From assembly GCA_028408365.1 (NCBI GenBank), contig JAOOLD010000002.1, forward strand, positions 94,780-158,779: a stretch of DNA of 64,000 nt. The letters run 5' to 3'. The position numbers and the translations under genes were made by a program. The stretch is from Bacteroidota bacterium. GTDB taxonomy: Bacteria > Bacteroidota > Bacteroidia > Flavobacteriales > BACL11. Below, in pieces: positions 4,128-59,983 of this stretch (the stretch's first letter is position 1; every line of letters begins with the position of its first letter). The notes under the pieces are model-generated. The model saw nothing but the letters and a program-made list of their open reading frames with translations. It was not told where the DNA came from and did no database searches.

Positions 4128-4135
4128 TAAATTTG
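4128..4135 (+). promoter_or_regulatory. -7 promoter element of msrB (leaderless)
   Basis: TAAATTTG matches the Bacteroidota -7 consensus TAnnTTTG and ends exactly 4 bases before the msrB ATG, so transcription should begin at the start codon. No clear -33 TTTG was found. Confidence 0.7.
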
Positions 4136-4139
4136 TGAT

Positions 4140-4523
4140 ATGAAACAAAATAAAAATTATTTCTCAACTTTAACAAAGGAAGAACATGAAATAATAGTAA
4201 ATAAAGGTACTGAAAAACCATTCTCAGGAAAATACAATAACTTTTACCTTCAAGGAATTTTTGTTTGTAAAGCCTGTGAAACACCTCTTTACAAATCAAG
4301 TAACAAGTTTGATTCAGGATGTGGTTGGCCTTCATTCGATGATGAAATAGAAGGTGCAATCTCAAGATTTCCTGACTATTCAGGAGGTAGAGTAAGAACT
4401 GAGATTTGTTGCTCTAACTGTGGTGGGCATTTAGGTCATGTTTTTGAAGGTGAGAGATTTACGAAGAAAAATACTCGACATTGTGTTAACTCTTTAAGTA
4501 TAAAGTTTGTTAAACAAAGCTGA
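4140..4523 (+). CDS. msrB: Peptide-methionine (R)-S-oxide reductase MsrB
   Basis: 127 residues, the normal size for a single-domain MsrB. Two zinc-binding pairs are visible (CKAC at 43-46 and CSNC at 91-94), as is the signature CGWPSF and the catalytic cysteine in RHCVNS (Cys115). The enzyme reduces R-methionine sulfoxide in oxidised proteins. No signal peptide, so cytoplasmic. It is transcribed alone, divergent from hemW, with a -7 element placed for a leaderless mRNA. The stop lies 4 bases from the end of the convergent histidine kinase gene. Confidence 0.95.
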   Translation: MKQNKNYFSTLTKEEHEIIVNKGTEKPFSGKYNNFYLQGIFVCKACETPLYKSSNKFDSGCGWPSFDDEIEGAISRFPDYSGGRVRTEICCSNCGGHLGHVFEGERFTKKNTRHCVNSLSIKFVKQS

Positions 4524-4527
4524 TTAA

Positions 4528-5724
4528 CTATACTTTTTTAAGTTTTATACAAAAAATAGTTCCATAATTTTCTTCAGAACTTGACACAAAAATTTTCCCA
4601 TTATGATACTCTTCAATTATTCTTTTTGTTAATGAAAGACCTAATCCCCAGCCACTTTTCTTACTAGTGTAACCGGGTAAAAATATTTGATTAATTTTAT
4701 TTTTAGCAATACCCTGTCCATAATCTTTTATGAAAATATCAACTTCATAATCATTACTTGTGACATCAAACTCTATTTTACCATTACCCTTCATAGCATC
4801 TGTTGCATTTTTACATAAATTCTCGATGGCCCATTCAAACAATGTTTTATTAGCACTTACAATTATGGGATCCTCAGGAAATTTTTTAATTATTTCTATT
4901 TTTTGAGGCAGCCTTTTTTCCAAGTATTCTAAAAAATTGCCTAATAGTTCATGAATCTGATAATTTTTCAGTGCAGGTACAGACCCAATTTTTGAAAACC
5001 TATCAGTGATTGTCTCAAGTCTTTGTAAGTCTTTATTAATCTCATTTAGTGTATCAGTATTAATCTCACTATCCTTTAATAATTCACTCCACGCAATTAG
5101 TGATGATAATGGTGTAGCTAATTGATGAGCAGTTTCTTTTGCCATACCAGCCCATACTTTATTCTGTTCAGATTTTTTAGCCGCACTAAAAATAATATAT
5201 GCGATAATAAAGAATATTAATATAAAGCCTAATTGATAAAAAGGATAGTAACGAAGCATACTCAAAATGTTAGAATCCTTATAGTATATAAATTGTTTAT
5301 CTCCAATAAAATTTATCTCAATTGGAGTACTATTTTCCTCTTTCATTACTTTAAGTTGATGCTTTAAAAAATTATTTGTAATTTTTTTTTCTTCAAATAA
5401 TTTAACTTTAAAAGTTAATAAACTATCTAATTTACTGTATGTTATTAAATTTCTGTACTCTAAAATACTATCACATTCATCAACTAAAATTAAAGGTATT
5501 TTCTTATTCTCTGTGATTACATTAATTGCTAATGAAAAGTCACCGTCAGATGATATATTAACTAAATTTTTGGTTGCCTGAGCCCATAACTCTATCTTCT
5601 TTCTCTCCTCCTTTTTCAGCTCTTTTACTAAGTTATTTGTAAAAATAATTGAAAATGCAGCTATTAATATTGCAAATAATAATAGCCATTTTTTCCATTT
5701 TTGCTCTTTATTATATACTGTCAT
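4528..5724 (-). CDS. Membrane sensor histidine kinase (orphan)
   Basis: 398 residues. A transmembrane segment near residues 12-30, an extracytoplasmic region of ~130 residues and a second membrane segment near 163-180 (LGFILIFFIIAYIIF) form the sensor. The kinase core follows: H box AHQLATPLSSLIAW, N box IENLCKNATDAM, G1 DYGQGIA and G2 GWGLGLSLTKRII. It autophosphorylates on the H-box histidine in response to an unknown signal. No response regulator gene is in the window. It is the last gene of the metG operon, and its start overlaps the end of the AsmA-like gene by 14 bases. Confidence 0.9.
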   Translation of the reverse strand: MTVYNKEQKWKKWLLLFAILIAAFSIIFTNNLVKELKKEERKKIELWAQATKNLVNISSDGDFSLAINVITENKKIPLILVDECDSILEYRNLITYSKLDSLLTFKVKLFEEKKITNNFLKHQLKVMKEENSTPIEINFIGDKQFIYYKDSNILSMLRYYPFYQLGFILIFFIIAYIIFSAAKKSEQNKVWAGMAKETAHQLATPLSSLIAWSELLKDSEINTDTLNEINKDLQRLETITDRFSKIGSVPALKNYQIHELLGNFLEYLEKRLPQKIEIIKKFPEDPIIVSANKTLFEWAIENLCKNATDAMKGNGKIEFDVTSNDYEVDIFIKDYGQGIAKNKINQIFLPGYTSKKSGWGLGLSLTKRIIEEYHNGKIFVSSSEENYGTIFCIKLKKV

Positions 5725-8185
5725 CCTCCCATTCTATTTCTGGAGCAATATCTTTTTTTTCATCTACAGTATCATTAATATTTTTTATAATCTCATTAAT
5801 AATTTTTTTTTCTTTTTCAATTTTGTTATTGATTTTTGCTCTAAATTTTATGTTATCGAATTCAATTTTTGTGTCATCAGTAGTTCCTATCATTTTAAGA
5901 TAAATTGCACTGAGACCTTCATTGTTTGATTTAATCTCACCAATTTCTTTATTTATTTTAGTATTCTTTTTTCTGAATTCGTTTGACATGAGCTCGGATA
6001 GAAGAAGAGTAATATCATAGTTGATCTCATTGTTTAAAGAGTGAGTGCCTGAAACAATTAAACTTAAGGCTGATGATATAATTTGCATTTCAGGTATTGT
6101 TATAAGATTATCTTTAATTTCTATCTTATTTTCAAGCTTGGAAAATTTAACATCTTTTAAGTCTTCAACATTAACGAAATTAGATAAATTTCTTAAAGGT
6201 TTAAAGTTAATTAATTCTCCCCTTTCTATAGTCAGATTAGAATTCATTGTTAATCTTTCTTTTATGAAATTCATTCTATTATCCCAAACAGCTGATAAAT
6301 TAATATTTGCAGTACCAATTCCTTTAATATGTTTTGATTCTATGAAGCTTTGATTGAAGTTATTAAAAGAATTAAATGCTTGTCTAATATTTATTGAACT
6401 GAAGTTAAAACTTGTGGATAGCTTCAATTCATCCTCTATAGTTTTGTATAGCTGCATATCTCCTTCAAACTGACCATTTAGTGCAGAGGTTTTTGTGTTT
6501 CTTAAATTCAAAACTTGGTTGTCAATTAAAAAGTCTGTTGTTAAATTTAATGCGTCAAAACTATTGTATGTAAAGTTTTTGCTTGTCATGTTTATTTGAA
6601 GATTAACCCATTTAGGTATGACAAACTCATCCTCGTTTAATTCTATAGTTTTATTTTTTTTAAATAAATCATCTAAGTTAACATATGTGGAATTTGTAGA
6701 TCCTTGAAGAAAAAAATTTGTTTTCTTCCCCAAAATGTACTCTGGTATATTTAAAATCTTACCACTGAATTCAAAGTCTGATTCTCCGCTTGTAATATAA
6801 CTTTTATAAACATCAAATTTTTTATTATTTAAATTAGCATCTAAAAACTCAAAGTTAAATGTGTTTTTGAAATTATTTAATTTATAGGAAAAGTTTTTAG
6901 CATCTAATTTGAAGTTGTATTTTGATGCTAAAAATTTATTTTTAAACTCATTGTTGAATGAAAATTTTCCAGAATAATTACAAGCTACAAATAAATTACC
7001 AGTAATAGTTTCCACATTATCTTTTTTAAGTAACATTTCCAAATCACTTCCTCCAATTTTTGTTTTCATATCAAGATTTATAAAAAAATCCTGTAGATTT
7101 TCTATAAAAAAATCTCCACTAAACTCGCTGTATTTTGTTTTGGCAAAGAAATTATCAAAAGTAAACTTTGTTGAACTTAAATTAGCATATTCACCATTCG
7201 AAACTTTTCCGCTAAATTTCATGTCTTGGAGATTTAATTTTGATTTGTTAAATTTTAAACTTCCGTCCTGAACAAAATATTTAATATTAACTCTGGGGTT
7301 CTTTAAAGATTCATCTTCTTTAATGATACTTCCATTAAAAGATATTAAAGAGTTCAAGCTTGTACTCTCAAATAAGTAATCAAGATACTCAGGGCAATTC
7401 TTTCTAACATTAACAATTTTCTGGTTCTTAAAATCAAATTCTATGTTAAATGACCTCCACTCATTTATATTTCCAGAGACTGATTCTGATTCTAAATCAT
7501 CAATTTTAAGTTTTTCAAATTTATAATCAATTTGATTTTTTTTAATGTTAACATTTCCATTCAAATAAAGCTGTTTATTATCCAAGTGATTTTTACTAAA
7601 AATTAAATCATCACAATACAAATTACCATTTAAATAAAAATTATTGCTTGATTTGCTTGTAATATCAAGATCTTTGATATTGAAGAAAATTTTATTGTTT
7701 TTTTGTAATTCAGAGTATCTGAAATCAGAATTAAAAATTTTAATTCTGTTAAAGATTTTTTTATTTACATCAACATCGGAGCTAGAACTTTTGAATATAT
7801 TAAAGTTTGTATGTTGGTCTGATTTGTAAAGGTTAATCATGCCATCATTTATTTCAATAGTTGAGAAATAAATATTATTAGTCAAAAGCTTGATTAATGG
7901 TAAATGTAATTGGCATTCTTTTGCAAAAAACAAGGTGTCGTTTTCAAAATTAGATTCTTCTTTAACATAAATGTTTTTTATCGAAATTGAAATATTTGTT
8001 AAATTTTTAAAAGCAGATAAATCAATGTCTTCAAAAGAGCAGTCTGCTGAGATAACCTCATTAATACTATTAGTGATACTTTCTTTTATGAAATCGGATT
8101 TGTATTTAGTAAAAAAAAATACCACTGCTACAAAAAGAAATAATAAGATAGATATTAGTAAGAATATTTTTTTTACTACTCCCAT
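5711..8185 (-). CDS. AsmA-family envelope protein
   Basis: 824 residues with one N-terminal membrane anchor (IFLLISILLFLFVAVVFFF) followed by a long periplasmic region of repeating beta-strands. The C-terminal part (INLSAVWDNR, then MNSNLTIERGELINFKPL) resembles the AsmA C-terminal domain. AsmA-like proteins are now viewed as bridge-like lipid transfer proteins between inner and outer membranes; that role here is inference. It begins directly after the stop of the pseudouridine synthase gene and overlaps the kinase start, so it belongs to the same operon. The lysine-rich tail (KKNTKINKEIGE onward) extends past the usual domain. Confidence 0.8.
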   Translation of the reverse strand: MGVVKKIFLLISILLFLFVAVVFFFTKYKSDFIKESITNSINEVISADCSFEDIDLSAFKNLTNISISIKNIYVKEESNFENDTLFFAKECQLHLPLIKLLTNNIYFSTIEINDGMINLYKSDQHTNFNIFKSSSSDVDVNKKIFNRIKIFNSDFRYSELQKNNKIFFNIKDLDITSKSSNNFYLNGNLYCDDLIFSKNHLDNKQLYLNGNVNIKKNQIDYKFEKLKIDDLESESVSGNINEWRSFNIEFDFKNQKIVNVRKNCPEYLDYLFESTSLNSLISFNGSIIKEDESLKNPRVNIKYFVQDGSLKFNKSKLNLQDMKFSGKVSNGEYANLSSTKFTFDNFFAKTKYSEFSGDFFIENLQDFFINLDMKTKIGGSDLEMLLKKDNVETITGNLFVACNYSGKFSFNNEFKNKFLASKYNFKLDAKNFSYKLNNFKNTFNFEFLDANLNNKKFDVYKSYITSGESDFEFSGKILNIPEYILGKKTNFFLQGSTNSTYVNLDDLFKKNKTIELNEDEFVIPKWVNLQINMTSKNFTYNSFDALNLTTDFLIDNQVLNLRNTKTSALNGQFEGDMQLYKTIEDELKLSTSFNFSSINIRQAFNSFNNFNQSFIESKHIKGIGTANINLSAVWDNRMNFIKERLTMNSNLTIERGELINFKPLRNLSNFVNVEDLKDVKFSKLENKIEIKDNLITIPEMQIISSALSLIVSGTHSLNNEINYDITLLLSELMSNEFRKKNTKINKEIGEIKSNNEGLSAIYLKMIGTTDDTKIEFDNIKFRAKINNKIEKEKKIINEIIKNINDTVDEKKDIAPEIEWEDDSI

Positions 8186-13062: not shown

Positions 13063-13319
13063 TCCGAATCTTTTACAGGAGAGTTTCTCATTGCAGATTT
13101 TTTGCATTTATAATCAATTATTAAATCTTCTCTCAAAACATTTATTTCCGTACTAATGTGAGAAAGAGGCTCAACGTCACTGACATCAAGCTTATCAAGT
13201 ACCTTAATAAAGTTTAAGATTTTTTTTAAATCTTTTTTTATTGCAAAAAAATCTCCCTCTTTAAATTCAAGTTTTGCAAGTGTGCTAAGCTGACTTATTA
13301 GTTTGTTAGATATTTTCAT
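13017..13319 (-). CDS. gatC: Asp-tRNA(Asn)/Glu-tRNA(Gln) amidotransferase subunit C
   Basis: 100 residues, the usual GatC length. Recognisable pattern: LAKLEFKE near the start, the central LDKLDVSDVEPLSHIS, then LREDLI. GatC stabilises the GatAB heterodimer that amidates misacylated Glu-tRNA(Gln) or Asp-tRNA(Asn). gatA and gatB are not adjacent, which is common in Bacteroidota. Its start overlaps the end of plsC by 14 bases, so it is expressed from the plsC promoter. A tRNA-Gln gene lies at the far end of the window. Confidence 0.9.
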   Translation of the reverse strand: MKISNKLISQLSTLAKLEFKEGDFFAIKKDLKKILNFIKVLDKLDVSDVEPLSHISTEINVLREDLIIDYKCKKSAMRNSPVKDSDYFKVKKVIKKLDKR

Positions 13320-14046
13320 TTACTTTTAGTTCTTGATCTATCTTATCAAAGACAAAATTATTTAATTTTTTTAAATCATTTTTGTCAAAATTTCTGATTT
13401 GTATTGGATCAAGATATTTAATTCTAGAAATTCCGGGAGAACCTTTGAAATAAGACCACGGAAATCTTTTTTTATTGTCATATATGACAACTGGAAGTAT
13501 ATCAGTACCACTTTCTAATGCTATTTTAAAGGCTCCATTTTTAAATCTTCTCAATCTAACTTCTGGGTTCGGAATTCCTCCTTCAGTAAAAACACAAACA
13601 CTTATTTCCTCATTAACTACTTGCTTGGCTCTGACATAAGCATTATATGAATCTCTTAAATTCTGTCTATCAACGCTTATTGAATTTTTTTTGAAATAAT
13701 ATCCGAAAATTGGAAACTTAGTAATTTCTGATTTTCCAATAAAAATTAGAGGAATATTAGCTGTGGAGTAAATTAAAGCTATGTCCAAGCTAGAAACATG
13801 ATTTGAACAAATAATGTATGTTTTATTTTTCTCAATTTTTTTCGATAGTTCTCCTCTAACTAAAATACCTGAGAAAAAAAGTAAACATTTCGACCATAAT
13901 TTTGATATCTTAAAAATCTGTTTTTTGTTTGGTAATAAGTTCGTGAATAAGAAAAGGGCAGGTAAAAACAATATTTGAGTAAATACAAAAAACAAAAAAA
14001 CCCAACTTCTCCATAAGAGTGAGAGAAGATACTTTCCAAATCTCAT
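13306..14046 (-). CDS. plsC: 1-acyl-sn-glycerol-3-phosphate acyltransferase
   Basis: 246 residues. An N-terminal hydrophobic helix (WVFLFFVFTQILFLPALFLF) anchors it to the inner membrane. The acyltransferase motifs are all visible: NHVSSLD (HX4D catalytic pair), FTEGGIPN (substrate-binding block) and ILPVVIYD. It acylates lysophosphatidate to phosphatidate in phospholipid synthesis. The ATG is 4 bases after a perfect TATATTTG, so the message should be leaderless. It overlaps gatC by 14 bases. Confidence 0.92.
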   Translation of the reverse strand: MRFGKYLLSLLWRSWVFLFFVFTQILFLPALFLFTNLLPNKKQIFKISKLWSKCLLFFSGILVRGELSKKIEKNKTYIICSNHVSSLDIALIYSTANIPLIFIGKSEITKFPIFGYYFKKNSISVDRQNLRDSYNAYVRAKQVVNEEISVCVFTEGGIPNPEVRLRRFKNGAFKIALESGTDILPVVIYDNKKRFPWSYFKGSPGISRIKYLDPIQIRNFDKNDLKKLNNFVFDKIDQELKVNENI

Positions 14047-14050: not shown

Positions 14051-14058
14051 CAAATATA
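14051..14058 (-). promoter_or_regulatory. -7 promoter element of plsC-gatC (leaderless)
   Basis: TATATTTG on the minus strand, separated by TACT from the plsC ATG. The 4-base gap implies initiation at the start codon. Confidence 0.7.
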
Positions 14059-19749: not shown

Positions 19750-20916
19750 ATGACAGAGAATGCAGTTATTATTGGACTAGTCTTATCCAATGATGATACT
19801 GATACTGTAGACCAAAATCTGTCAGAACTTGAGTTTCTAGCAAAGACTTGTGGCGCAAATGTTGTTAAGCAATTTACTCAAAAACTTCATTCACCTAACC
19901 CAAGCACTTTTTTAGGCAAGGGAAAACTTAAGATTATCTTAGATTATGTTAATTCAAATGAGATCGATTTATTAATATTCGATGACGATTTATCAGCCAC
20001 TCAGCTGAGAAATATTGAAAATTATTTTAAAATTAAAATTTTAGATCGGAGCAATTTAATTCTTGACATTTTTGCAAAGAGAGCACAAACAGCTACCGCA
20101 AAAACACAAGTAGAACTTGCTCAATATGAGTATTTATTACCCAGGCTTACTAGAATGTGGACACATTTAGAGCGTCAGAAAGGAGGTATTGGAATGAGAG
20201 GACCAGGAGAAACTCAAATTGAAACAGACAGAAGAATTATAAAAGATAAAATTTCTTTGCTAAAAAAAAGATTGATTAAAATTGATAAACAAAAAAATAC
20301 ACAGAGGAAGAGAAGAGCTAGATTAGTCAGAGTATCATTAGTTGGTTACACAAATGCTGGTAAATCAACAATAATGAATAAGTTAAGCAAGTCAGATGTT
20401 CTTGCTGAGAACATGCTATTTGCTACTCTAGATACAACAGTTAGAAAGGTTGTTGTAAAAAACCTGCCATTTTTACTTTCAGATACTGTAGGCTTTATTA
20501 GAAAACTACCTCATCAACTCATCGAATCATTTAAGTCAACATTAGATGAGGTGAAAGAATCAGACTTTCTAATACATGTTGTGGATATTTCTAATAAAAA
20601 TTTTGAGGAGCATATGAACACTGTTAATCAAACCTTGGATGAACTTGGAGTAGTAGAAAAGCCTATAATGTTAATATATAACAAAGTTGATCAATACAGT
20701 TTTATTGAAAAAGATATTGATGATTTGACACCTCTAACAAAAGACAATTTATCAATTGACGATTTAAGACAAACATGGATAAGTAAGCTAAACAAAAATG
20801 TTTTTTTTATCTCAGCTCTAAACAAAAATGACATCACAGAGCTCAGAAACTTTTTATATTCTTACATAAAGAGTATACATGCAAAGCGTTGGCCTTATGA
20901 TAATTTACTTTACTGA
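19750..20916 (+). CDS. hflX: Ribosome-associated GTPase HflX
   Basis: 388 residues. The N-terminal HflX domain contains FLGKGKLKII, FDDDLSATQLRN and RSNLILDIFAKRAQTATAKTQVELAQ, followed by the GMRGPGETQIETDRR glycine-rich block. The G domain has G1 GYTNAGKST, G3 DTVGF and G4 NKVD. HflX splits stalled 70S ribosomes and acts on 50S subunits under stress. The ATG is 6 bases after the preceding membrane-protein gene. The 3' end overlaps the convergent exporter gene by 7 bases. Confidence 0.95.
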   Translation: MTENAVIIGLVLSNDDTDTVDQNLSELEFLAKTCGANVVKQFTQKLHSPNPSTFLGKGKLKIILDYVNSNEIDLLIFDDDLSATQLRNIENYFKIKILDRSNLILDIFAKRAQTATAKTQVELAQYEYLLPRLTRMWTHLERQKGGIGMRGPGETQIETDRRIIKDKISLLKKRLIKIDKQKNTQRKRRARLVRVSLVGYTNAGKSTIMNKLSKSDVLAENMLFATLDTTVRKVVVKNLPFLLSDTVGFIRKLPHQLIESFKSTLDEVKESDFLIHVVDISNKNFEEHMNTVNQTLDELGVVEKPIMLIYNKVDQYSFIEKDIDDLTPLTKDNLSIDDLRQTWISKLNKNVFFISALNKNDITELRNFLYSYIKSIHAKRWPYDNLLY

Positions 20917-22730
20917 TGTTTAGTAAACTTTTCAAATAAGTTACTATAAATTTCACTGTTTTTCAAAAGTTTATTATGAGTACCTGAATCAATTATTCTT
21001 CCTTTGTCGAGAATCAAAATTTTATCACAATTTTGGATTGTATTTAAATTATGGGTTATTATTAAGCACGTTCTATCTTTCATAATATTTTGAATAGCCA
21101 TGTTAACGTATTCTGCGGAATCAGCATCAAGGGATGAAGTTGCTTCGTCAAGTATTAAAAATTCAGGATTTTGAATCAAATTTCTAGCTATACATATTCT
21201 TTGCTTTTCTCCTTGAGACAAATTGTTTCCTTTATCACCCACATTAAAATTAAATTTTTTAGGTAGTTTTTCAATGAAATTATATGAGTAAGAATCCTTT
21301 GCAGCTTTAATTATATCACTATTTTTTGCATTTAGATTACCAAGAAAAATATTGTTAAATATTGTGTCGTTGAACAAGAATGGGACTTGATCTACACTTC
21401 CAAAAAATTCCCTAATGGAACTGATGTCATATTTACTTAATTTTTCATTATTAATGTAAATTTCCCCACTATCAAAATTATATAATCTGTTAATTAAGTC
21501 GCAAATAGTTGTTTTGCCTGAACCTGAGTGTCCAACTATAGCAATATTTTCACCTTTATTAATTCTGAAAGAAGTACCGCTTAAAACCTTATTGTTATCA
21601 TGGCTGAAATGAACATCCTTAAACTCCAAATAATCAAAATTTTTAATTTTCTTCTTCGAGTTTTTGATGTTATCTTCATCTTTTAAATTGATGATTTCAA
21701 ATACTCTTTTTGAAGCCGCATTACCTTTTTTTATGCTGTAAAATGAAGATGTGAGAGATTTTGCTGGAGGAATTAGTTGAGAAAAAATCAGAACAAAGCC
21801 AATAAATTCTTGAGCTAGAATTTCAGATTTAGTGTTTAAAACCATAGTTCCGCCAATAAGCAAAACAATTACCAATACAATAGTACTTAAGAACTCACTC
21901 ATTGGAGAGGATAAGTCTTTTTTTCTCAGTAAAGAGTTCATAAGCTGACTATATTTTTTACTTTCAATTGAAAAAATCGAATGTATATGTTTACTTATGT
22001 TTAATGATTTAATGGTTCTAATTCCTGACAAGGTTTCGTCCACCTTACTCATAATTTTACCCATTTGACTTTGAACTTTGTCTGAATCTTTTTGCAATTG
22101 TTTGCCAATGTATCCAATTATAAATCCTACAATTGGAAACATTATTATTACAAGCAATGTTAATTTAAAACTTAATGTTAATAACGCAATTAAAAAAATA
22201 ATGATTGTGATGGGGTCTTTAAATAACATTTCCAAAGTGCTCATGATTGACCATTCTATTTCAATTAAATCATTAGAAATTCTTGAAAGAAGATCTCCCT
22301 TTTTTCTTTTTTCAATCGATTTTATGGGAATTGAAAGTAATTTTTTATTAATTACAACCCGAATATCATTTATAACTCCATTTCTTATTGGAACCATAAA
22401 ATATAGTGCTAAATATCTAAAAAGGTTACGAAACAAAAAGCTTATTAAAATTAATGAGCAAATTAAAATTAGTGCTTTAGCACTTCCACTGGATTCAATG
22501 GTATGACTTATTTGATAATAAAAAAGGTTTTTGACGCTTTCAATGCTATTTATAATTTCAGGCGGGTTAACTACTCTTTCTTGTGTCCCAAATAAAACAC
22601 CTAAAAATGGTATAATCATTGTTAATGATACCAAAGAGAAGATTGATGATAGTGCATTAAAAAACACATTCAACATACAATAAGCTTTGTAAACTTTTAG
22701 ATAGCTTAGAAATTTCAATAAACTTTTCAC
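20910..22730 (-). CDS. ABC exporter, fused permease-ATPase (MsbA-like)
   Basis: 606 residues, GTG start. About six membrane helices fill residues 1-330. The nucleotide-binding domain carries Walker A GHSGSGKTT, Q-loop SVDQVPF, signature LSQGEKQR, Walker B FLILDEATSSLD and the switch histidine in ITHNL. The half-transporter architecture matches lipid A/phospholipid flippase MsbA and related multidrug exporters, which act as homodimers in the inner membrane. The specific cargo cannot be read from sequence. The GTG lies exactly 4 bases from a perfect -7 element, so it is probably translated from a leaderless mRNA. It is divergent from rbfA across 55 bases. Confidence 0.9.
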   Translation of the reverse strand: MKSLLKFLSYLKVYKAYCMLNVFFNALSSIFSLVSLTMIIPFLGVLFGTQERVVNPPEIINSIESVKNLFYYQISHTIESSGSAKALILICSLILISFLFRNLFRYLALYFMVPIRNGVINDIRVVINKKLLSIPIKSIEKRKKGDLLSRISNDLIEIEWSIMSTLEMLFKDPITIIIFLIALLTLSFKLTLLVIIMFPIVGFIIGYIGKQLQKDSDKVQSQMGKIMSKVDETLSGIRTIKSLNISKHIHSIFSIESKKYSQLMNSLLRKKDLSSPMSEFLSTIVLVIVLLIGGTMVLNTKSEILAQEFIGFVLIFSQLIPPAKSLTSSFYSIKKGNAASKRVFEIINLKDEDNIKNSKKKIKNFDYLEFKDVHFSHDNNKVLSGTSFRINKGENIAIVGHSGSGKTTICDLINRLYNFDSGEIYINNEKLSKYDISSIREFFGSVDQVPFLFNDTIFNNIFLGNLNAKNSDIIKAAKDSYSYNFIEKLPKKFNFNVGDKGNNLSQGEKQRICIARNLIQNPEFLILDEATSSLDADSAEYVNMAIQNIMKDRTCLIITHNLNTIQNCDKILILDKGRIIDSGTHNKLLKNSEIYSNLFEKFTKHQ

Positions 22731-22734
22731 TCTA

Positions 22735-22742
22735 CAAAGATA
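22735..22742 (-). promoter_or_regulatory. -7 promoter element of the ABC exporter (leaderless)
   Basis: TATCTTTG on the minus strand, then TAGA, then the GTG start: a 4-base gap. Confidence 0.65.
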
Positions 22743-22773
22743 ATTAATGGTAGGAATAACGTAAACAAATTAT

Positions 22774-22781
22774 TATTATTG
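22774..22781 (+). promoter_or_regulatory. Probable -7 promoter element of rbfA
   Basis: TATTATTG has one mismatch to TAnnTTTG and lies 4 bases from the rbfA ATG, the same spacing as the exact cases elsewhere in the window. Confidence 0.4.
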
Positions 22782-22785
22782 CAAA

Positions 22786-23127
22786 ATGCAATCAAACAAC
22801 AGAGTGAGTAAAGTATCCAGATTAATCCAAAAGGAATTATCAAATGTTTTTAACATTGATTTAATTAATCAATTTTCTGGAATCATAATTAGTGTAACAA
22901 CTGTAAGAATCACACCAGACTTCTCTGAAGCAAGAGTTTTTTTAAGTGTTTTTCCATTGGAGAAACCCAATGAGTTTATTAAACGAATAAATGATAATAA
23001 ACAATTTATAAGAGGTAAATTAGGAAGTAGAATTAAAAATCAATTTAGAAAAGTTCCAAAATTGATATTCTTTTTGGATGATTCAGCTGAATTTTCAGAT
23101 GAAATAGAAGAGCTCATCAAAAAATAA
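22786..23127 (+). CDS. rbfA: 30S ribosome-binding factor RbfA
   Basis: 113 residues. The type II KH-fold pattern of RbfA is visible: RVSKVSRLIQKELSNVF at the N-terminus, VTTVRITPDFSEARVFLSVFP in the middle and FRKVPKLIFFLDDSAE near the end. RbfA assists 16S rRNA 5'-end processing and small-subunit maturation. It is followed one base later by an FtsX-like permease gene, a pairing common in Bacteroidota. Confidence 0.92.
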   Translation: MQSNNRVSKVSRLIQKELSNVFNIDLINQFSGIIISVTTVRITPDFSEARVFLSVFPLEKPNEFIKRINDNKQFIRGKLGSRIKNQFRKVPKLIFFLDDSAEFSDEIEELIKK

Positions 23128-23128: not shown

Positions 23129-24340
23129 ATGAAACAAGCTTTTTATTTATCAAAATTTTTTTTTAGCTCCAAAAATAAAAGTTCAAGTTCTTATTTTATT
23201 TCTAAAGTTTCAAGCATTTCAATAGCAGCTAGTTCATTTTCGTTAATTGTAATAATGTCAATTTTTACTGGCTTTGAAAATTTACTTTCTCAAATGTATA
23301 GTGATTTTGACCCGGATATTAAAGTAACATCTAAAAATCAAACCTTTTTCTCAAAAAGTGATTTTAATTTCGGAGAGCTTGATTCAAGTCAAATTGATTA
23401 TGCACTAACAATAGAGAACAAAATCTTAGCTAAATATGAGGATAAACAGTTTCTTGCTAATCTAAAAGGAGTTTCAAAAAACTATGAGAATGTAACCAAA
23501 ATAAATGGTTTTGTAAAAGAAATTTTTTCCGAAAAAAACAATTCATATAATAATGTTTATTTAGGATTAGGATTAGCAAATAATATTGGAATACAAAATG
23601 AAAGCTTTAATAAAACTTTAAGTTTTTTTTATCCAAATTTTAAAACAAATACAGCTTTTGGAGTTAAACCATACAATACTGATAAAGCTATTGTTAATAA
23701 AATATTTTCATTTGCATCAGATGTTGACAATGAGTTTGTTATTTCTGAAATTGAATTTGCACAGAACTTATTTTCAAACAATGGATTAATTTCTGCAATA
23801 GAAATAAACTTAAAAAACAAGAAAGATTTAAATACAGTCATAAAATATTTGAATAAGAAAAATGAAAATTCTTTTTTTGTTAAAGATAAGTTTCAGCAAA
23901 GAGATTTTTTGTTTAAAATTCTTAACTCAGAAAAGCTAGCTGTTTTTTTTATTTTAGTGTTGATTATTTTACTTTCGAGTTTTACTCACATTGGTTTTTT
24001 AAATATGTTTTTTATAGAAAAAAAATCAGAACTTCTTACATTAAATAAAATTGGCTTTTCTAATAAGTTAATTCAATATGTACTTTTTTTTGTTAGCATT
24101 AAAAAATTTCTAAGAGGACTCATAATTGGTGTTGGTTTGGCCCATTTATTTATCTTCTTACAATTGAAATTTTCATTAATTAAAATGAAAGATAATTTAG
24201 TAGTAGATTCTTATCCAGTCAGTTACGAGCCGTTAATGGTATTGCAATTAATTGTTGTACTTATTTTAATCTCTATTTTATACTCTTGGTTACCAAGCAA
24301 AACTCTATCATCAAATTTTTTAAGAAAAGCTGAATTCTGA
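23129..24340 (+). CDS. FtsX/LolE-like ABC transporter permease
   Basis: 403 residues. One N-terminal membrane helix (SISIAASSFSLIVIMSIFTGF), a periplasmic domain of ~200 residues and three C-terminal helices (FFILVLIILLSSFTHIGF, LRGLIIGVGLAHLFIF, VLQLIVVLILISILYSWLP) give the MacB/LolE topology. The N-terminal pattern matches LolC/LolE-type lipoprotein release permeases. No ATPase gene is next to it, so its partner must be elsewhere. It is cotranscribed with rbfA (one-base gap). Its last 21 bases overlap convergent dusB. Confidence 0.85.
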   Translation: MKQAFYLSKFFFSSKNKSSSSYFISKVSSISIAASSFSLIVIMSIFTGFENLLSQMYSDFDPDIKVTSKNQTFFSKSDFNFGELDSSQIDYALTIENKILAKYEDKQFLANLKGVSKNYENVTKINGFVKEIFSEKNNSYNNVYLGLGLANNIGIQNESFNKTLSFFYPNFKTNTAFGVKPYNTDKAIVNKIFSFASDVDNEFVISEIEFAQNLFSNNGLISAIEINLKNKKDLNTVIKYLNKKNENSFFVKDKFQQRDFLFKILNSEKLAVFFILVLIILLSSFTHIGFLNMFFIEKKSELLTLNKIGFSNKLIQYVLFFVSIKKFLRGLIIGVGLAHLFIFLQLKFSLIKMKDNLVVDSYPVSYEPLMVLQLIVVLILISILYSWLPSKTLSSNFLRKAEF

Positions 24341-25315
24341 GAATTTATCTTTTATGCTTTCTAATATTTCTATTATTTCACTTGCATTCTCAGATGAAAC
24401 TAATTTAATTCTATGATCTTTAAAATGAGGTATGCCTCTGAAATAGTTTGTGTAGTGCCTTCTTGTTTCGAAAATTCCGAGTCTTTCGCCCTTCCATGCA
24501 ATTGAATGTTTCAAATGTCTTTTACATACCCTTACTCTATCTTCAATAGTTGGCTTAGAAATGGTTTCTTTGTTTTTTAAATAGCTTTTGATTTCATTAA
24601 AAATCCATGGATATCCAATTGCTGCTCTTCCAATCATTACTCCATCAATCCCATATTTTTTTTTCATCTCAAGGGCTTTTTCGCCAGAATTTATATCACC
24701 GTTACCAAATACAGGAATATGCATGCGTGGGTTTTTTTTTACCTCACCAATTAATGTCCAATCGGCTTCACCTTTATACATCTGTTTTCTAGTTCTTCCG
24801 TGTATAGATATTGCTTTAATTCCAACATCTTGTAATCTTTCAGCTACTTCAACAATATATTTACTATTTTCATCCCAGCCTAATCGGGTTTTTACAGTTA
24901 CTGGCAATGAGGTTGATTTAACAATTTCTTTTGTCATTTTAACCATTTTTGGAATGTCTTGTAAAATACCTGCTCCAGCTCCTTTACACGCAACTTTTTT
25001 CACTGGGCATCCGTAATTTATATCAATTATATCAGGATTAGCTTGTTCACAGATTGCAGTGGCTAATTTCATAGATTCTATGTTTCCCCCAAAAATTTGG
25101 ATTCCAATTGGTCTTTCTTCGTCATATATATCCAGCTTCATAGTGCTTTTTTCTGCGTCCCTAATCAATCCCTCTGAGGAAATAAATTCAGTGTACATAA
25201 TGTCAGCACCATTTTCTTTACAAATTGCTCTGAACGGAGGGTCACTAACATCCTCCATTGGAGCTAACATTAAAGGGAAGCTGCCTAAATTAATATTTTC
25301 TATTTTTACACTCAC
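24320..25315 (-). CDS. dusB: tRNA-dihydrouridine synthase DusB
   Basis: 331 residues, GTG start. The TIM-barrel FMN enzyme pattern is clear: LAPMEDVSDPPFR, the catalytic cysteine in DINYGCPVKKV, the KTRLGWD lysine-arginine block, SIHGRTRKQMYKG, then GNGDI and GVMIGRAAIG for FMN phosphate. It reduces uridine to dihydrouridine in the tRNA D-loop using NADPH. The GTG is placed exactly 4 bases after a perfect TAATTTTG, supporting both the start and a leaderless message. It is divergent from the CPBP protease gene. Confidence 0.93.
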   Translation of the reverse strand: MSVKIENINLGSFPLMLAPMEDVSDPPFRAICKENGADIMYTEFISSEGLIRDAEKSTMKLDIYDEERPIGIQIFGGNIESMKLATAICEQANPDIIDINYGCPVKKVACKGAGAGILQDIPKMVKMTKEIVKSTSLPVTVKTRLGWDENSKYIVEVAERLQDVGIKAISIHGRTRKQMYKGEADWTLIGEVKKNPRMHIPVFGNGDINSGEKALEMKKKYGIDGVMIGRAAIGYPWIFNEIKSYLKNKETISKPTIEDRVRVCKRHLKHSIAWKGERLGIFETRRHYTNYFRGIPHFKDHRIKLVSSENASEIIEILESIKDKFSEFSFS

Positions 25316-25319: not shown

Positions 25320-25327
25320 CAAAATTA
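25320..25327 (-). promoter_or_regulatory. -7 promoter element of dusB (leaderless)
   Basis: TAATTTTG on the minus strand, then CAAG, then GTG. The gap is 4 bases. Confidence 0.65.
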
Positions 25328-29101: not shown

Positions 29102-29109
29102 CAAAAGTA
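29102..29109 (-). promoter_or_regulatory. -7 promoter element of the superoxide dismutase gene (leaderless)
   Basis: TACTTTTG on the minus strand, then CCTA, then the GTG start. It lies in the 16 bases between the sulfotransferase stop and this gene. Confidence 0.65.
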
Positions 29110-31668: not shown

Positions 31669-31676
31669 CAAAAGTA
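31669..31676 (-). promoter_or_regulatory. -7 promoter element of the FAH-family operon
   Basis: TACTTTTG on the minus strand, then TAAGA, then GTG. The gap is 5 bases, so the leader should be absent or one base long. Confidence 0.6.
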
Positions 31677-40578: not shown

Positions 40579-41821
40579 TTATAAATCTTTTATACTTTTT
40601 TGTGTTTTTTCATTTATACTCTTATCTTGCAAGGAACCCTCAGAAATAGGTCTTGACATACATCCTGAAAGTGATAGAATTCTGATAAAAAATAATTCGA
40701 ATTTTTTTAATTTTTCAACGAATACTCTTTCTGAAGATTCTTTAAGGACTGATGAACCTGTTAGATTATTACTAGGTAACCTTACTAGTGATCCTATTTT
40801 CCCAAAATCTAATGCGCACTTTATTTCTAATCTTCTACTTCCATCAAACAATATCAGCTTTGGAGACATAACAAATATTATTGTAGACAGTGTTATATTG
40901 CAATACGTTATTGATGACTATTACGGAAATGAAATCCAAACTTTTCCTAATCTATACGTATCAAAATTAACAGATCCAATTTATAAAGATTCGTCTTACT
41001 ATTCCAACTATCCTGTTGTTTATAGTCAATCTGAATTAGTTTCAGTAAATAACATAGTGGTTCAGGACTCAAATTCTGTATCAATAATCAAAATTTCAAT
41101 AGACAACTCCTTAGGACAAGAAATCATCGATGGTGGAAATGCCTTAAGCTCTAATGAAGATTTTCTTCAGTATTTTTACGGTCTTAAAGTTGCCACTGTC
41201 AATCCATCAGATTTAAACTTAGCTAATGACAATACAATATTGTATTTAAACGCTGATAATCAAAAGTCTAAATTTTCAATTTACTACAGAGATATTTCTG
41301 TAAATGATTCAGTAATGTCTTTCGATTTAATGTTAGGAGGAGAAGCTGCTAGAATTAATCTTTTTAATCAAAAAAATATTCAACAACTTAACGCTTCTAC
41401 CGATAGCTGTTACGTTCAGTCAATGTCAAGTTATTTAACATCTATTCAGTTTAATAACTTAGAAAGTATTAGGGATACTTTAAAGAATAAAGTCATAAAT
41501 AAAGTTAATCTTAAATTCTCATGCAATGAGGATTTACAATTTGGAGCTCATGAAAAACTTTTCCTAGTCAGAAAAAATCCCATGGGAGTTAATGTTTTTT
41601 TAAGTGATTTTGTCATAGAGGGAGAATCACATTTTGGTGGGCAGAATCAGAACAATAATTTTACTTTTAACATAACAAGGTATTTTAGCGATTTGATAAA
41701 TGGAGCTTCAGGCTTCACAGGAGAACTTTTATTGTTACCATCAGGTGCTGTAATAAATGCAAACAGAACAATAATACCAAAATCAAGTTTTGTGATTGAA
41801 GTATTATATTCTGAATTATAA
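40565..41821 (+). CDS. DUF4270 family lipoprotein with a non-ATG start
   Basis: 418 residues from TTG 40565; TTG 40571 is also possible. There is no ATG before the lipobox, and the signal (FILFCVFSFILLSC) needs an upstream start, so a TTG must be used. The mature part begins KEPSEIGLDIHPESD, the standard DUF4270 opening, followed by beta-rich sequence and a closing VIPKSSFVIEVLY. DUF4270 proteins are outer-membrane lipoproteins of Bacteroidota without known function. The gene overlaps the GT5 gene by 14 bases, consistent with translation by coupling rather than by a strong start. Confidence 0.85.
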   Translation: MRLYSYKSFILFCVFSFILLSCKEPSEIGLDIHPESDRILIKNNSNFFNFSTNTLSEDSLRTDEPVRLLLGNLTSDPIFPKSNAHFISNLLLPSNNISFGDITNIIVDSVILQYVIDDYYGNEIQTFPNLYVSKLTDPIYKDSSYYSNYPVVYSQSELVSVNNIVVQDSNSVSIIKISIDNSLGQEIIDGGNALSSNEDFLQYFYGLKVATVNPSDLNLANDNTILYLNADNQKSKFSIYYRDISVNDSVMSFDLMLGGEAARINLFNQKNIQQLNASTDSCYVQSMSSYLTSIQFNNLESIRDTLKNKVINKVNLKFSCNEDLQFGAHEKLFLVRKNPMGVNVFLSDFVIEGESHFGGQNQNNNFTFNITRYFSDLINGASGFTGELLLLPSGAVINANRTIIPKSSFVIEVLYSEL

Positions 41822-41839
41822 TAACTTCGTTTTAATTGT

Positions 41840-41847
41840 TACTTTTG
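41840..41847 (+). promoter_or_regulatory. -7 promoter element of glmS (leaderless)
   Basis: TACTTTTG, then AAAA, then ATG. The 4-base gap implies an mRNA starting at the glmS codon. Confidence 0.7.
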
Positions 41848-41851
41848 AAAA

Positions 41852-43687
41852 ATGTGTGGAATTGTTTCTTACATCGGAAATAAAGATGCGTACCCAATAA
41901 TAATAAAGGGACTTAAAAGATTAGAGTACAGAGGTTATGATAGTGCAGGTATATGTTTGCTTAAAAACAGTTTAATATCATATAAATCCAAGGGAAAAGT
42001 CAAGGATTTAGAAAAAGAGTTTAATAAAAAACCCATTAGTTCATTTGTAGGAATAGGACATACAAGGTGGGCAACTCATGGTGAGCCAAACAAAACAAAT
42101 GCTCACCCTCATTTGTCAAACTCTAAAAATCTAGCTATAGTTCACAACGGAATAATTGAAAACTATGATTCAATAAGAAAACTATTGAAGAAAAAAGGTT
42201 ATAAGTTTTATTCTGACACTGATACTGAAGTTTTAATTAACTTAATTGAATATGAACAAAAAAGTGAAAATCTTAGTTTATTTGAATCAGTAAGGTCGGC
42301 TCTTAAGCAGGTTATTGGAGCATATGCTATTGTTGTAATGGAAAAAGATAATTTTAACGAAATTGTTGTTGCTAGAAAAGGTTCTCCATTAGTTATAGGA
42401 ATTGAAAATGGAGAATATTATGTTGCTTCTGATGCTAGCCCAATAATTGAGTATACAAAAAATGTTGTTTATCTTAATGATGACGAAGTTGCAAGAATAA
42501 ATATTAAATCAGGTTTACAAATTAAGACTGTAAGTAATAAGAAAGTTACTCCTTTTGTACAAGAGTTAGCATTATCAATTGAAGATATAGAAAAAGGAGG
42601 TTTTGATTATTTTATGTTAAAAGAAATTTATGAGCAACCTAAGAGTATAAGATCCACTTTAAGAGGAAGAATCACAGCTCAAAATAAAATTAAATTAGCA
42701 GGTTTTAGAGACTTTGAGAAAAAAATTTTAAAAGCAAACAGATTTACAATCATTGCCTGTGGTACATCATGGCATGCTGGCTTAGTTGCATCATATTATT
42801 TTGAAAGCATAGCTAGAATTAATGTTGATGTTCAGTATGCATCAGAGTTTAGGTATAGAAACCCAGTATTAAACGAAAATGATGTTGTGCTAAGTATTAC
42901 TCAATCTGGTGAAACTGCAGATACTCTTGCCGCTCAAAAACTTGCAAAAAGTAGGGGAGCTATATCACTGGCTATATGCAATGTTGTTGGCTCAAGTATT
43001 GCCAGAGAAAATGATGGTGGAGCATATACTCATGCTGGTCCTGAAATTGGAGTTGCCTCAACAAAAGCTTTCACTACTCAACTTACAATACTACTCTTAA
43101 TCGCACTTAGATTAGGAAAAGAAAATTCTTCCATAAGAGATCGAGATTATCAAAGAATGTTGATTGAAATTCAGATGCTCCCATCAACATTAGAGGAATG
43201 TTTAAAAATTGATAAAAAAATAAAAAAAATTTCTAAGGAGTTTATGAACTCAGAAAACTTCTTATATCTAGGAAGAGGTATGAACTTTCCAGTAGCTTTA
43301 GAAGGAGCTCTTAAGTTGAAAGAAATATCATACATTCACGCTGAAGGGTATCCTGCAGCTGAAATGAAGCATGGCCCTATAGCTCTCATTGACGAAAAGA
43401 TGCCAGTGGTAGTTATAGCAACAGAAGAAGAGCACTACACAAAAATTTTAAGCAATGCTCAAGAGGTGAAGTCAAGAGGAGGAAGAATTATTTCAATAGT
43501 TTTTGATGCTGATGAGTCAATATCTAGTATTTCCGAGCATGTAATCAAAGTCCCTAAAGTAAACAAATACTTGTCTCCAATAATTTCTGTAATATCTCTT
43601 CAACTACTTTCTTATCACATTGCAGTTATGAGAGGATGTGATGTTGATCAACCAAGGAACTTAGCTAAATCAGTTACGGTCGAATAG
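41852..43687 (+). CDS. glmS: Glutamine--fructose-6-phosphate aminotransferase (isomerizing)
   Basis: 611 residues. The N-terminal class II amidotransferase domain starts with the catalytic cysteine directly after Met (MCGIVSYIG) and has RGYDSAG and HTRWATHG. Two SIS domains follow (ACGTSWHAGL, SQSGETADTLAA and the second at LGRGMNFPVALEGALKLKE), with the closing QPRNLAKSVTVE. It makes glucosamine-6-phosphate for peptidoglycan and LPS. The mature enzyme needs the cysteine at position 2, so the start is certain. The mRNA appears leaderless, leaving no 5' room for a glmS ribozyme-type control. Confidence 0.97.
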   Translation: MCGIVSYIGNKDAYPIIIKGLKRLEYRGYDSAGICLLKNSLISYKSKGKVKDLEKEFNKKPISSFVGIGHTRWATHGEPNKTNAHPHLSNSKNLAIVHNGIIENYDSIRKLLKKKGYKFYSDTDTEVLINLIEYEQKSENLSLFESVRSALKQVIGAYAIVVMEKDNFNEIVVARKGSPLVIGIENGEYYVASDASPIIEYTKNVVYLNDDEVARINIKSGLQIKTVSNKKVTPFVQELALSIEDIEKGGFDYFMLKEIYEQPKSIRSTLRGRITAQNKIKLAGFRDFEKKILKANRFTIIACGTSWHAGLVASYYFESIARINVDVQYASEFRYRNPVLNENDVVLSITQSGETADTLAAQKLAKSRGAISLAICNVVGSSIARENDGGAYTHAGPEIGVASTKAFTTQLTILLLIALRLGKENSSIRDRDYQRMLIEIQMLPSTLEECLKIDKKIKKISKEFMNSENFLYLGRGMNFPVALEGALKLKEISYIHAEGYPAAEMKHGPIALIDEKMPVVVIATEEEHYTKILSNAQEVKSRGGRIISIVFDADESISSISEHVIKVPKVNKYLSPIISVISLQLLSYHIAVMRGCDVDQPRNLAKSVTVE

Positions 43688-46130: not shown

Positions 46131-46138
46131 TATTTTTA
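46131..46138 (+). promoter_or_regulatory. Probable -7 element of the GT39 gene
   Basis: TATTTTTA, one mismatch from TAnnTTTG, lies exactly 4 bases before the ATG at 46143. Confidence 0.35.
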
Positions 46139-55626: not shown

Positions 55627-55632
55627 TAATTT

Positions 55633-56626: not shown

Positions 56627-56659
56627 TTTGTAAAGTACTTAAATATCAAGTTATTTTAA

Positions 56660-56667
56660 TAGTTTTG
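56660..56667 (+). promoter_or_regulatory. -7 promoter element of tRNA-Met
   Basis: TAGTTTTG, 25 bases from the tRNA 5' end. Confidence 0.45.
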
Positions 56668-56692
56668 TCCATCTTTTTTATTTTAAGAAAGA

Positions 56693-56766: not shown

Positions 56767-56774
56767 CTAAAATT

Positions 56775-56801
56775 AACCTCACACATGTGAGGTTTTTTTT
56801 T
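56775..56801 (+). terminator. Terminator after tRNA-Met
   Basis: A 9-bp perfect stem AACCTCACA / TGTGAGGTT with a 2-base centre, followed by a run of Ts, 8 bases after the tRNA. Confidence 0.85.
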
Positions 56802-56838
56802 ATTTTTTCAATAATTTTAAGTAACTAAAATTAGTTGT

Positions 56839-56846
56839 TAAATTTG
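56839..56846 (+). promoter_or_regulatory. -7 promoter element of the DUF4197 operon (leaderless)
   Basis: TAAATTTG, then TTTT, then the ATG at 56851. The gap is 4 bases. Confidence 0.65.
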
Positions 56847-56850
56847 TTTT

Positions 56851-57537
56851 ATGATAAGATTTTCACTCACACTAATTCTATCAATATGTTTTCTTAATCA
56901 AAACTTTTCTCAGATTAATTCTTTAAAAAATATAGTAGTTAAATCAAAGAAAAAACTAACTGAAGAAAAAATTAATAAAATATCAATTTCAAAAGAAGCT
57001 TATTTAAATCTTGTTGATATAACTTTTAGTGATATAATGATAAAAGATGGATTTTTAAAAAATGAATCAATTAAAATTAAATTTCCACCTAATGCAAAAA
57101 AAATGAAAGATGTTCTGATTAAATATGATAAAGGAAACTTAACTAATAATCTTGTGTTCAAAATGAATAGAACAGCAGAAAGAGTTTGTGAAATTTCTAA
57201 AGATGAAATTGTTATTGAGTTAACTAAATATGATTTTAGTAACATAAAAATCACTGGAAAAACAAATCTGTCTCAATTAATTTTGCAAAAAGGTAATGTC
57301 AAATTTATTATAAATAAAAATCTTAAATCAGAACTTAGAAAAAACAACTCAGTTGGTTTGCTTTGGAATAATTTAGTAAGGATAAATAATAAAATCCCCA
57401 TCTCTAGATTATCTTGGACAAAAAGTAATAATTTTTCTTTTCAAAAATATCTAGAGGAAGAAATAATTAGAGGGATATTATTTTCTCTTGAACAAAGAAT
57501 AAAAGAATCATCAATCAAACTCAATTACTTACAATGA
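56851..57537 (+). CDS. DUF4197-like secreted protein
   Basis: 228 residues with a signal peptide (LTLILSICFLNQNFSQ). It resembles the DUF4197 layout: a FFxN-like DGFLKNESIKIKFPPNAKKMKDVL, then FKMNRTAERVC (family MNRAAE), a degenerate central region and a closing NLVRINNKIP segment. The central Da-x-x-Il-x-G block of the family has become FSNIKITGKTN, so it is divergent. The function of DUF4197 is unknown; members are envelope proteins. It is coupled by ATGA to a coiled-coil membrane protein. Confidence 0.75.
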   Translation: MIRFSLTLILSICFLNQNFSQINSLKNIVVKSKKKLTEEKINKISISKEAYLNLVDITFSDIMIKDGFLKNESIKIKFPPNAKKMKDVLIKYDKGNLTNNLVFKMNRTAERVCEISKDEIVIELTKYDFSNIKITGKTNLSQLILQKGNVKFIINKNLKSELRKNNSVGLLWNNLVRINNKIPISRLSWTKSNNFSFQKYLEEEIIRGILFSLEQRIKESSIKLNYLQ

Positions 57538-58436: not shown

Positions 58437-59197
58437 TGACAAAAATAATATCATATAATATTAACGGCATAAGGGCAGCAATCAGAAAAGGTTTAATTGA
58501 TTGGTTAAAAGTTACATCACCTGATATAATTTGTTTTCAAGAGATTAAAGCTTTTGAAACACAATTTGATCTGAACATGTTTAAAAATTTAGGATATCAA
58601 ACATATTGTAATTCAGCTGAAAAACCTGGATACAGTGGAGTTGCAATCTTCAGCAAGATATCTCCCAATAAAATTACAACGGGAATGAATGTCCCAGAAA
58701 TTGATATAGAGGGAAGAGTAATAAAGTTAGATTTTGAAAATTTTTCAGTAATAAATTCATATTTCCCATCAGGAACTAGTGGAGAGGTAAGGCAGGCTTT
58801 TAAAATGAAATTTTTGAAAGAGTTTGAAAATTATGTTCATTCGTTCAAAGATAATCCCATTGTTGTTTGTGGTGATTTTAATATTTGTCATGAACCAATA
58901 GACATCCATAATCCAGTGAGCAATAAAAATTCATCAGGCTTTCTGCCTGAAGAAAGGCAATGGATGACAGAATTTTTGGAAATGGGATTCATAGACTCAT
59001 TTAGAAGGCTTAATAATGAGCCTCACAATTATACCTGGTGGTCATATCGTGCAAATTCTAGAAACAAAAATTTAGGATGGAGGATAGATTACCATATGCT
59101 AAGTAAATCATTGAACTCTAAAATTGTTAGATCCAGTATATTGTCAGAAGTAAAGCACTCTGATCATTGCCCAATACTTTTGGAGTTAAATCTTTAG
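58436..59197 (+). CDS. xth: Exodeoxyribonuclease III (AP endonuclease)
   Basis: 253 residues. Family blocks: ISYNINGIRAAIRKGL, CFQEIKA (metal-binding glutamate), YFPSGTSGE, VVCGDFNICHEPIDIHNP (active Asp and Asn), GFRRLN-like FIDSFRRLN, YTWWSY and the closing KHSDHCPI with the catalytic Asp-His. It cuts at abasic sites and degrades the 3' strand of duplex DNA. The start overlaps the stop of the coiled-coil gene (TAATG). Confidence 0.95.
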   Translation: MTKIISYNINGIRAAIRKGLIDWLKVTSPDIICFQEIKAFETQFDLNMFKNLGYQTYCNSAEKPGYSGVAIFSKISPNKITTGMNVPEIDIEGRVIKLDFENFSVINSYFPSGTSGEVRQAFKMKFLKEFENYVHSFKDNPIVVCGDFNICHEPIDIHNPVSNKNSSGFLPEERQWMTEFLEMGFIDSFRRLNNEPHNYTWWSYRANSRNKNLGWRIDYHMLSKSLNSKIVRSSILSEVKHSDHCPILLELNL

Positions 59198-59200
59198 TGT

Positions 59201-59208
59201 TATATTTG
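59201..59208 (+). promoter_or_regulatory. -7 promoter element of the methyltransferase gene (leaderless)
   Basis: TATATTTG, then AATA, then the ATG at 59213. The gap is 4 bases. It starts 3 bases after the xth stop. Confidence 0.65.
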
Positions 59209-59212
59209 AATA

Positions 59213-59983
59213 ATGTCAATAATACAAACGGCCGAGAGAAGTAGTGGGGAAGATGCCTCAGAAAATGTAATTTTTCAAAGGCATTTGATTGCATATAAAA
59301 AGGCTGCTGAGCTTGTAAAAAAAAATACTTTAGAAATTGGATGTGGTGAGGGCTATGGAATAAAAGAGTTATTGCCAAAAGTTAAAAAATATATATGCAT
59401 AGACAAGTATGAGTCAAATATCAATTTCAAGTCTGAAAAATTAACTTTTATTAAAAGTGAAGTCCCACCGTTAAATAAAATAAAGTCTGATTCATTAGAC
59501 TTTGTCGTAACATTTCAAGTAATTGAGCATATTGAAAATGATAAGTTTTTTGTTGAAGAAATTTTTAGAGTTTTAAAGCCAGGCGGGAAACTGATATTAA
59601 CTACACCCAATAAGGTTATGACACTTTCAAGAAACCCATGGCATGTGAGGGAGTATACAAATTCTGAAATGAAGGAAATTTTATCAGTAGCTTTCACAAA
59701 TATTAAAATTTTTGGGGTCTACGGAAACCAAAAAGTTATGAACTACTATCAAAAAAATAAAGAATCCGTAAACAAAATAATGAAATGGGATATTTTTAAT
59801 TTGCAGTATAGATTACCAAGGAAGCTTTTACAAATTCCTTATGATATTTTAAATCGCTACAATAGAGTTTCTTTAAAAAATAAAAATTCTGAAATTGTGG
59901 ATTCAATTAATTTTACTGACTACTCTATAATACAAAGTCATGATGACAAGTATTTAGATCATTTTTGTGTAGCTACCAAGTAG
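59213..59983 (+). CDS. Class I SAM-dependent methyltransferase
   Basis: 256 residues. SAM-binding motif I LEIGCGEGYGIKELL, acidic end of strand 2 in CIDKYES, motif II DFVVTFQVIEHIEN and motif III LKPGGKLILTTPN place it in the Methyltransf_11/UbiE-like class. No signal peptide. The substrate is unknown; relatives act on quinones, lipids or sugars. It has its own promoter despite lying 15 bases after xth. It converges on the deacetylase with an 11-base overlap. Confidence 0.85.
   Translation: MSIIQTAERSSGEDASENVIFQRHLIAYKKAAELVKKNTLEIGCGEGYGIKELLPKVKKYICIDKYESNINFKSEKLTFIKSEVPPLNKIKSDSLDFVVTFQVIEHIENDKFFVEEIFRVLKPGGKLILTTPNKVMTLSRNPWHVREYTNSEMKEILSVAFTNIKIFGVYGNQKVMNYYQKNKESVNKIMKWDIFNLQYRLPRKLLQIPYDILNRYNRVSLKNKNSEIVDSINFTDYSIIQSHDDKYLDHFCVATK

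Follow-up and report, generated by a model that had tools for sequence, protein, structure and literature searches.

Promoter elements set four nucleotides before start codons point to frequent leaderless mRNAs in a family of Flavobacteriales

In Flavobacterium and Bacteroides, the sequence TAnnTTTG is well established as part of the promoter (PMC6847099, PMC9723704, PMC7366714). In F. johnsoniae, this −7 element lies 4 or 5 nt from the mapped transcription start, and the −33 element is weak (PMC6847099). Leaderless mRNAs make up 5.5% in F. psychrophilum (PMC9723704), 3.7% of the 5′ UTRs of B. thetaiotaomicron are shorter than 10 nt (PMC7366714), and 13% in F. johnsoniae have leaders of at most 10 nt (PMC6847099). 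An earlier survey reported leaderless genes in only one of 37 Bacteroidetes/Chlorobi genomes (2.4%) (PMC3160421). Work continues on how Bacteroidota find their start codons without Shine-Dalgarno (SD) pairing, and from the transcriptomes of cultured species leaderless messages were judged too few to account for this choice.

Here, we analyze a stretch of 64,000 nt (the window), which lies on contig 12 of a genome of 1.47 Mb (G000; 86% complete, ∼30% G+C). By glmS, its closest named relatives are the single-cell genomes AG-913-I23, AG-453-C03, and AG-898-D03, labelled uncultured Bacteroidetes. An earlier note on this DNA had pointed to eight genes with an exact TAnnTTTG followed by four bases and the start codon. 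We consider it probable (about 0.86) that such sites are promoters of leaderless mRNAs, a class used severalfold more here than in the experimentally studied Bacteroidota.

Elements ahead of genes in the window

All eight sites are exact, with the coordinates and strands claimed for them (Table 1), and Pfam supports the assignment of the window genes to SelR/MsrB, acyltransferase, ABC exporter, Dus, Fe/Mn-SOD, GlmS, DUF4197, methyltransferase, and HMA. The pattern TANNTTTGNNNNRTG (TAnnTTTG-N4-[AG]TG) has 13 matches in the window, compared to a mean of 3.43 and a maximum of 9 in shuffled sequences, none of the 100 shuffles reaching 13. Eight matches are the listed gene starts, and the other five lie off gene starts (692+, 31893−, 32569+, 46498+, 47278−), which is about the number expected by chance. 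The gene starting at 31663 on the minus strand, read as a FAH-family gene, carries an exact element at spacing 5, as had been described. One-mismatch elements at spacing 4 had also been listed for three genes and are present ahead of 22786+, 46143+, and the HMA gene at 34516+, but the last match is probably due to chance, as this gene is operon-internal (gap of 9), where matches sit at the background level.

At 22728–22788, the elements of the divergent ABC exporter (minus) and of the gene at 22786 (plus) lie back to back. The superoxide dismutase, glmS, and methyltransferase genes, 15–30 bp behind a co-directional gene, may also be transcribed by upstream read-through as leadered messages.

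Table 1. Coordinates of −7 elements in the window and of features of the Shine-Dalgarno machinery in G000 and its relatives
Feature	Sequence	Position	Strand	Spacing and start codon	Gene	Remarks
msrB	TAAATTTG	4128..4135	+	N4 to ATG 4140	4140-4523	kept in G001
plsC-like acyltransferase	TATATTTG	14051..14058	-	N4 to ATG 14046	13306-14046	kept in G001; same spacing also in G013
ABC exporter	TATCTTTG	22735..22742	-	N4 to GTG 22730	20910-22730	kept in G001; G013 counterpart is TACTTTTG-N4-ATG
rbfA (earlier note's name)	TATTATTG	22774..22781	+	N4 to ATG 22786		one mismatch; divergent head
dusB	TAATTTTG	25320..25327	-	N4 to GTG 25315	24320-25315	kept in G001 with GTG; leadered in G013
Fe/Mn superoxide dismutase	TACTTTTG	29102..29109	-	N4 to GTG 29097	28405-29097	kept in G001 with GTG; co-directional gene only 16 bp upstream
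FAH-family gene (earlier note's name)	TACTTTTG	31669..31676	-	spacing 5, GTG 31663	30749-31663	exact
glmS	TACTTTTG	41840..41847	+	N4 to ATG 41852	41852-43687	
GT39 (earlier note's name)	TATTTTTA	46131..46138	+	N4 to ATG 46143		one mismatch; divergent head
DUF4197 gene	TAAATTTG	56839..56846	+	N4 to ATG 56851	56851-57537	
methyltransferase	TATATTTG	59201..59208	+	N4 to ATG 59213	59213-59983	leadered in G013; co-directional gene 15 bp upstream
16S 3′ end, G001	GGCTGGAATATCTCTTTT	L189 (G001:C13:28535-30058), ∼3010-3027				UCUCU
16S 3′ end, G003	GGCTGGAATATCTCTTTT	G003:C18:9635-9657				UCUCU
16S 3′ end, G019	GGCTGGAATATCTCTTTT	G019:C23				UCUCU
16S 3′ end, G031	GGCTGGAATATCTCTTTT	G031:C19				UCUCU
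prfB, G000		G000:C2, ∼5692-6770	-			
prfB, G001		G001:C1, ∼41450-42528				

Spacing across the genome and promoter identity

Gene-level analysis covered 834 kb of G000, 540 kb each of G001 and G013 (72 kb of the latter masked), 400 kb of G041, and small samples of G037 and G038. G001 is a sister genome (median protein identity to G000 of 95%), G013 represents another genus of the same family (median amino-acid identity of ∼57%), and G041 belongs to family f6. Genes were predicted ab initio with an iterated caller that used no upstream motifs, and the distance was measured from an exact TAnnTTTG to the predicted start codon. Transcription-unit heads were defined as genes that are divergent or have a co-directional upstream neighbour at a distance of 60 bp or more (n=284 in the 834 kb of G000), and operon-internal genes as those with such a neighbour less than 15 bp away (n=340). 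As background, we used the reversed pattern, which understates the background for TAnnTTTG, and, more strictly, spacings 60–83.

In G000, 28 of the 284 heads have the exact element at spacing 4 against a background of ∼0.5 per position; the counts at spacings 0–10 are 0, 0, 0, 3, 28, 6, 0, 4, 6, 2, and 5. Genome-wide, the spacing distribution is thus not flat, but spikes at exactly 4, and the earlier estimate of about one chance match per thousand starts was of the right order, as we found 0.33–0.48 sites per position in 263–284 upstream regions. The spacing-4 element precedes one of the 340 operon-internal genes and 10 of the 82 genes with gaps of 15–59 bp, and no spike at spacing 4 was found at ATGs internal to genes. 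One-mismatch sites likewise have their peak at spacing 4 (21 vs. 5.2 expected), and those with two mismatches show no peak there among the G000 heads. Across the genome, TAnnTTTG-N4-ATG has 97 matches compared to 18 for the reversed pattern; relative to the density at spacings 60–83 (957/24 = 40 per spacing), the excess is ∼57. For GTG, the respective numbers are just 19 and 15, and therefore the GTG cases depend mainly on conservation. In E. coli, GUG is generally a poor start on leaderless mRNAs, which counts against a leaderless reading of these cases.

No G000 head has the element at spacing 6, and in G013 and G041 the counts are low up to spacings of 10–14. It looks as if very short leaders (2–10 nt) were disfavoured and leaderless and leadered messages were two separate modes.

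With the excess of one-mismatch sites added, the spike corresponds to ∼43 of the 284 heads plus about ten of the 82 genes with intermediate gaps. Of the exact elements at most 45 nt from the start of a G000 head, 36–41% lie at spacings 3–6; the majority of G000 promoters are still leadered, with spacings 7–30. Hence, the earlier claim that a large share of first genes is leaderless is too strong: such genes account for ∼15% of unit heads and 7–8% of all genes, and a share of about a third is reached just for recognisable promoters near starts.

Leaderless-spaced and leadered sites look alike. In G000 and G013 combined, C or T directly follows TTTG in 84% of the 55 leaderless-spaced and in 84% of the 135 leadered sites, and both sets share a T-rich stretch immediately upstream of the element. 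The same flanking signature suggests that both are one sigma-A promoter. As to the −33 TTTG, TTG is not enriched at any position ahead of the 55 leaderless-spaced sites, a point against this reading, though not a decisive one, as this element is hard to see in F. johnsoniae too. The 4-or-5-nt distance in F. johnsoniae is reflected in the spacings found here, with a large peak at 4 and a small one at 5, and by this distance an element ending 4 nt before ATG predicts a message with 5′-AUG. The −7 element of the housekeeping sigma factor (sigma-A/sigma-ABfr) would then be placed so that transcription starts on the first base of the start codon, +1 being positioned by analogy with the mapped F. 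johnsoniae starts. The resulting mRNAs would be leaderless and form a discrete class beside the larger leadered one, with 5′ UTRs of a few to ∼25 nt, and their 5′-terminal AUG or GUG would presumably be bound directly by the ribosome without SD contact.

Conservation of the sites and validity of the start codons

The sister genome G001 retains the element and the spacing at 23 of 24 spacing-4 sites; in the one exception, 6 nt separate the element from the start. Between G001 and G000, changes affect 3 of 144 fixed motif bases, all at the exception site, compared to 15 of 96 spacer bases and 89 of 792 upstream bases. All five window genes covered in G001 (msrB, plsC, ABC exporter, dusB, and SOD) keep the arrangement, GTG starts included. 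In G013, 3 of 12 strict sites are kept, which suggests that across genera the class is stable while its member genes turn over, the trait being conserved more than individual sites. In the case of glmS, TACTTTTG-N4-ATG is shared by the window and three single-cell genomes of the same genus (L001, L002, and L003); in other Bacteroidota the element lies further upstream or is absent, the nearest other flavobacterial records having TATCTTTG well upstream.

A fixed distance to the start codon could also be that of a translation-initiation signal, such as a motif for ribosome binding in Bacteroidota at −12 to −5, especially as Bacteroidota lack SD and make use of A-rich features upstream (PMC6847099). 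However, operon-internal genes need starts as well, and the element is nearly absent from the 340 of them; the same extended signature also occurs at spacings 7–30, and TAnnTTTG was already known as a promoter in Flavobacterium and Bacteroides. We have rejected this idea because of the operon-internal genes and regard it as highly improbable. Slightly less improbable, though still very doubtful, is that the starts are mis-assigned and the true ones are downstream in-frame ATGs, which would make the messages leadered; all starts were predicted ab initio, with the caller opting for a downstream start at a few sites. Against this, the start codon is kept in 24 of 24 G001 orthologues, and the next in-frame ATG is mostly 6–56 codons off or lacking within ∼65 codons. 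Moreover, 44 of the substitutions after the starts fall at the third codon position vs. 12 at each of the other two, a bias which implies that translation begins at the start codon or earlier. GlmS requires a cysteine directly after the N-terminal methionine, as Cys2 is catalytic; the protein begins with MCGI, and hence its start is fixed. The leaderless reading proposed in the earlier note is thus backed by the spike, its restriction to unit heads, the conservation, the promoter signature, and the glmS start; the position of +1 we still infer.

Lineages, Shine-Dalgarno machinery, and known systems

In 37 genomes of the family, there are 3118 spacing-4 hits compared to 1566 expected from spacings 60–83, an excess of 28 per Mb. 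One might suppose that leaderless transcription is here at the ordinary low level of any Flavobacterium and that the lineage is not special: the shares in the three cultured species are 3.7–13%, and counts in some other Bacteroidia families are comparable or higher. However, other families of the order have an excess from below zero to 19 per Mb, mostly below 10, and the leaderless share of exact promoters is 36–41% in G000, 41–51% in G001, and 34–42% in G013, compared to 17–18% in G041 of family f6 and at most 9% in small samples of f2 and f3. We therefore consider the ordinary-level explanation unlikely and prefer a leaderless class of elevated frequency.

Among 237 genomes sampled across the class, the family of the window is exceeded by two distant ones, f56 and f52. 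Genomes of f56 (G099, G137, G168, G197, G223, G247, G270, and G291) have 133–223 matches of TAnnTTTG-N4-ATG vs. 6–23 reversed ones (e.g., 192 vs. 8), and those of f52 (G095, G134, and G165) have 269–356 vs. 75–89 (e.g., 356 vs. 75). Both are possible leaderless-rich lineages of Bacteroidia. Judging from these genome counts, the trait is lineage-specific and recurrent, not unique; it is family-wide and weak in most neighbouring families. A literature search, with most subscription journals outside its reach, found no published leaderless-rich lineage of Bacteroidota.

The 16S 3′ end was found as GGCTGGAATATCTCTTTT, with the core UCUCU and not CCUCC, in four genomes from three genera of the family (G001, G003, G019, and G031); 16S is missing from the G000 assembly, so that UCUCU is known from its relatives, and G030 of the same family retains CCUCC. 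In the order, CCUCC genomes carry AAAGGAGGTGT in the rpsU leader and UCUCA-type genomes carry AAAATGAGATGT, in agreement with PMC9976891. Most Flavobacteriales have an rpsU SD, canonical and covarying ones being present in f3 and f6, and no SD of rpsU (bS21) was found in the readable leaders of the family (∼20 genomes and G000:C51:54184-54232). In G000 and G001, prfB (RF2) is open from a normal ATG, with no internal stop in the region read. Many Bacteroidia use a programmed frameshift in prfB; in these two genomes, such an SD-assisted frameshift is apparently absent. Together, UCUCU, rpsU without SD, and prfB without the frameshift point to a loss of SD pairing.

A simple link from the loss of the anti-SD to the leaderless excess could not be established, as the counts are 96 vs. 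32 in G030 (CCUCC) and 39 vs. 20 in G019 (UCUCU), and a causal tie between the two is a conjecture. That the lineage has dropped SD pairing wholly and expanded leaderless initiation, with 5′-AUG recognition as a main route of translation for promoter-proximal genes, is a tentative idea, more doubtful than not.

A streamlined marine family with severalfold the usual leaderless use is a natural contrast to the cultured species. For such genomes, TAnnTTTG-N4-ATG marking a start could serve as an annotation rule, and the lineages named here, including the two distant ones with an even stronger signal, are candidates for 5′-end work.

The leaderless class itself is known; what is new is how frequent it is here and that it stands next to a lost anti-SD. 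Like this genome, F. psychrophilum, F. johnsoniae, and B. thetaiotaomicron combine the sigma-A −7 TAnnTTTG with a class of messages having little or no 5′ UTR; their shares are 3.7–13% depending on the definition, while here it is about a third of the recognisable promoters near starts, RNA-based and sequence-based shares being not strictly comparable. The TA-led leaderless genes of Actinobacteria and Deinococcus-Thermus likewise have a box ∼10–12 bp before the start, recognised through positional statistics of the same type, but that box is the TANNNT of ordinary sigma-70 and not TAnnTTTG (PMC3160421). Similar to SD-scarce Flavobacteriia such as Chryseobacterium (UCUCA), the family has an altered 16S anti-SD and almost no SD use (PMC9976891, PMC10783764). 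Unlike UCUCA genomes, which keep a covarying SD at rpsU, the family of the window has UCUCU in three genera and rpsU without a complementary SD.
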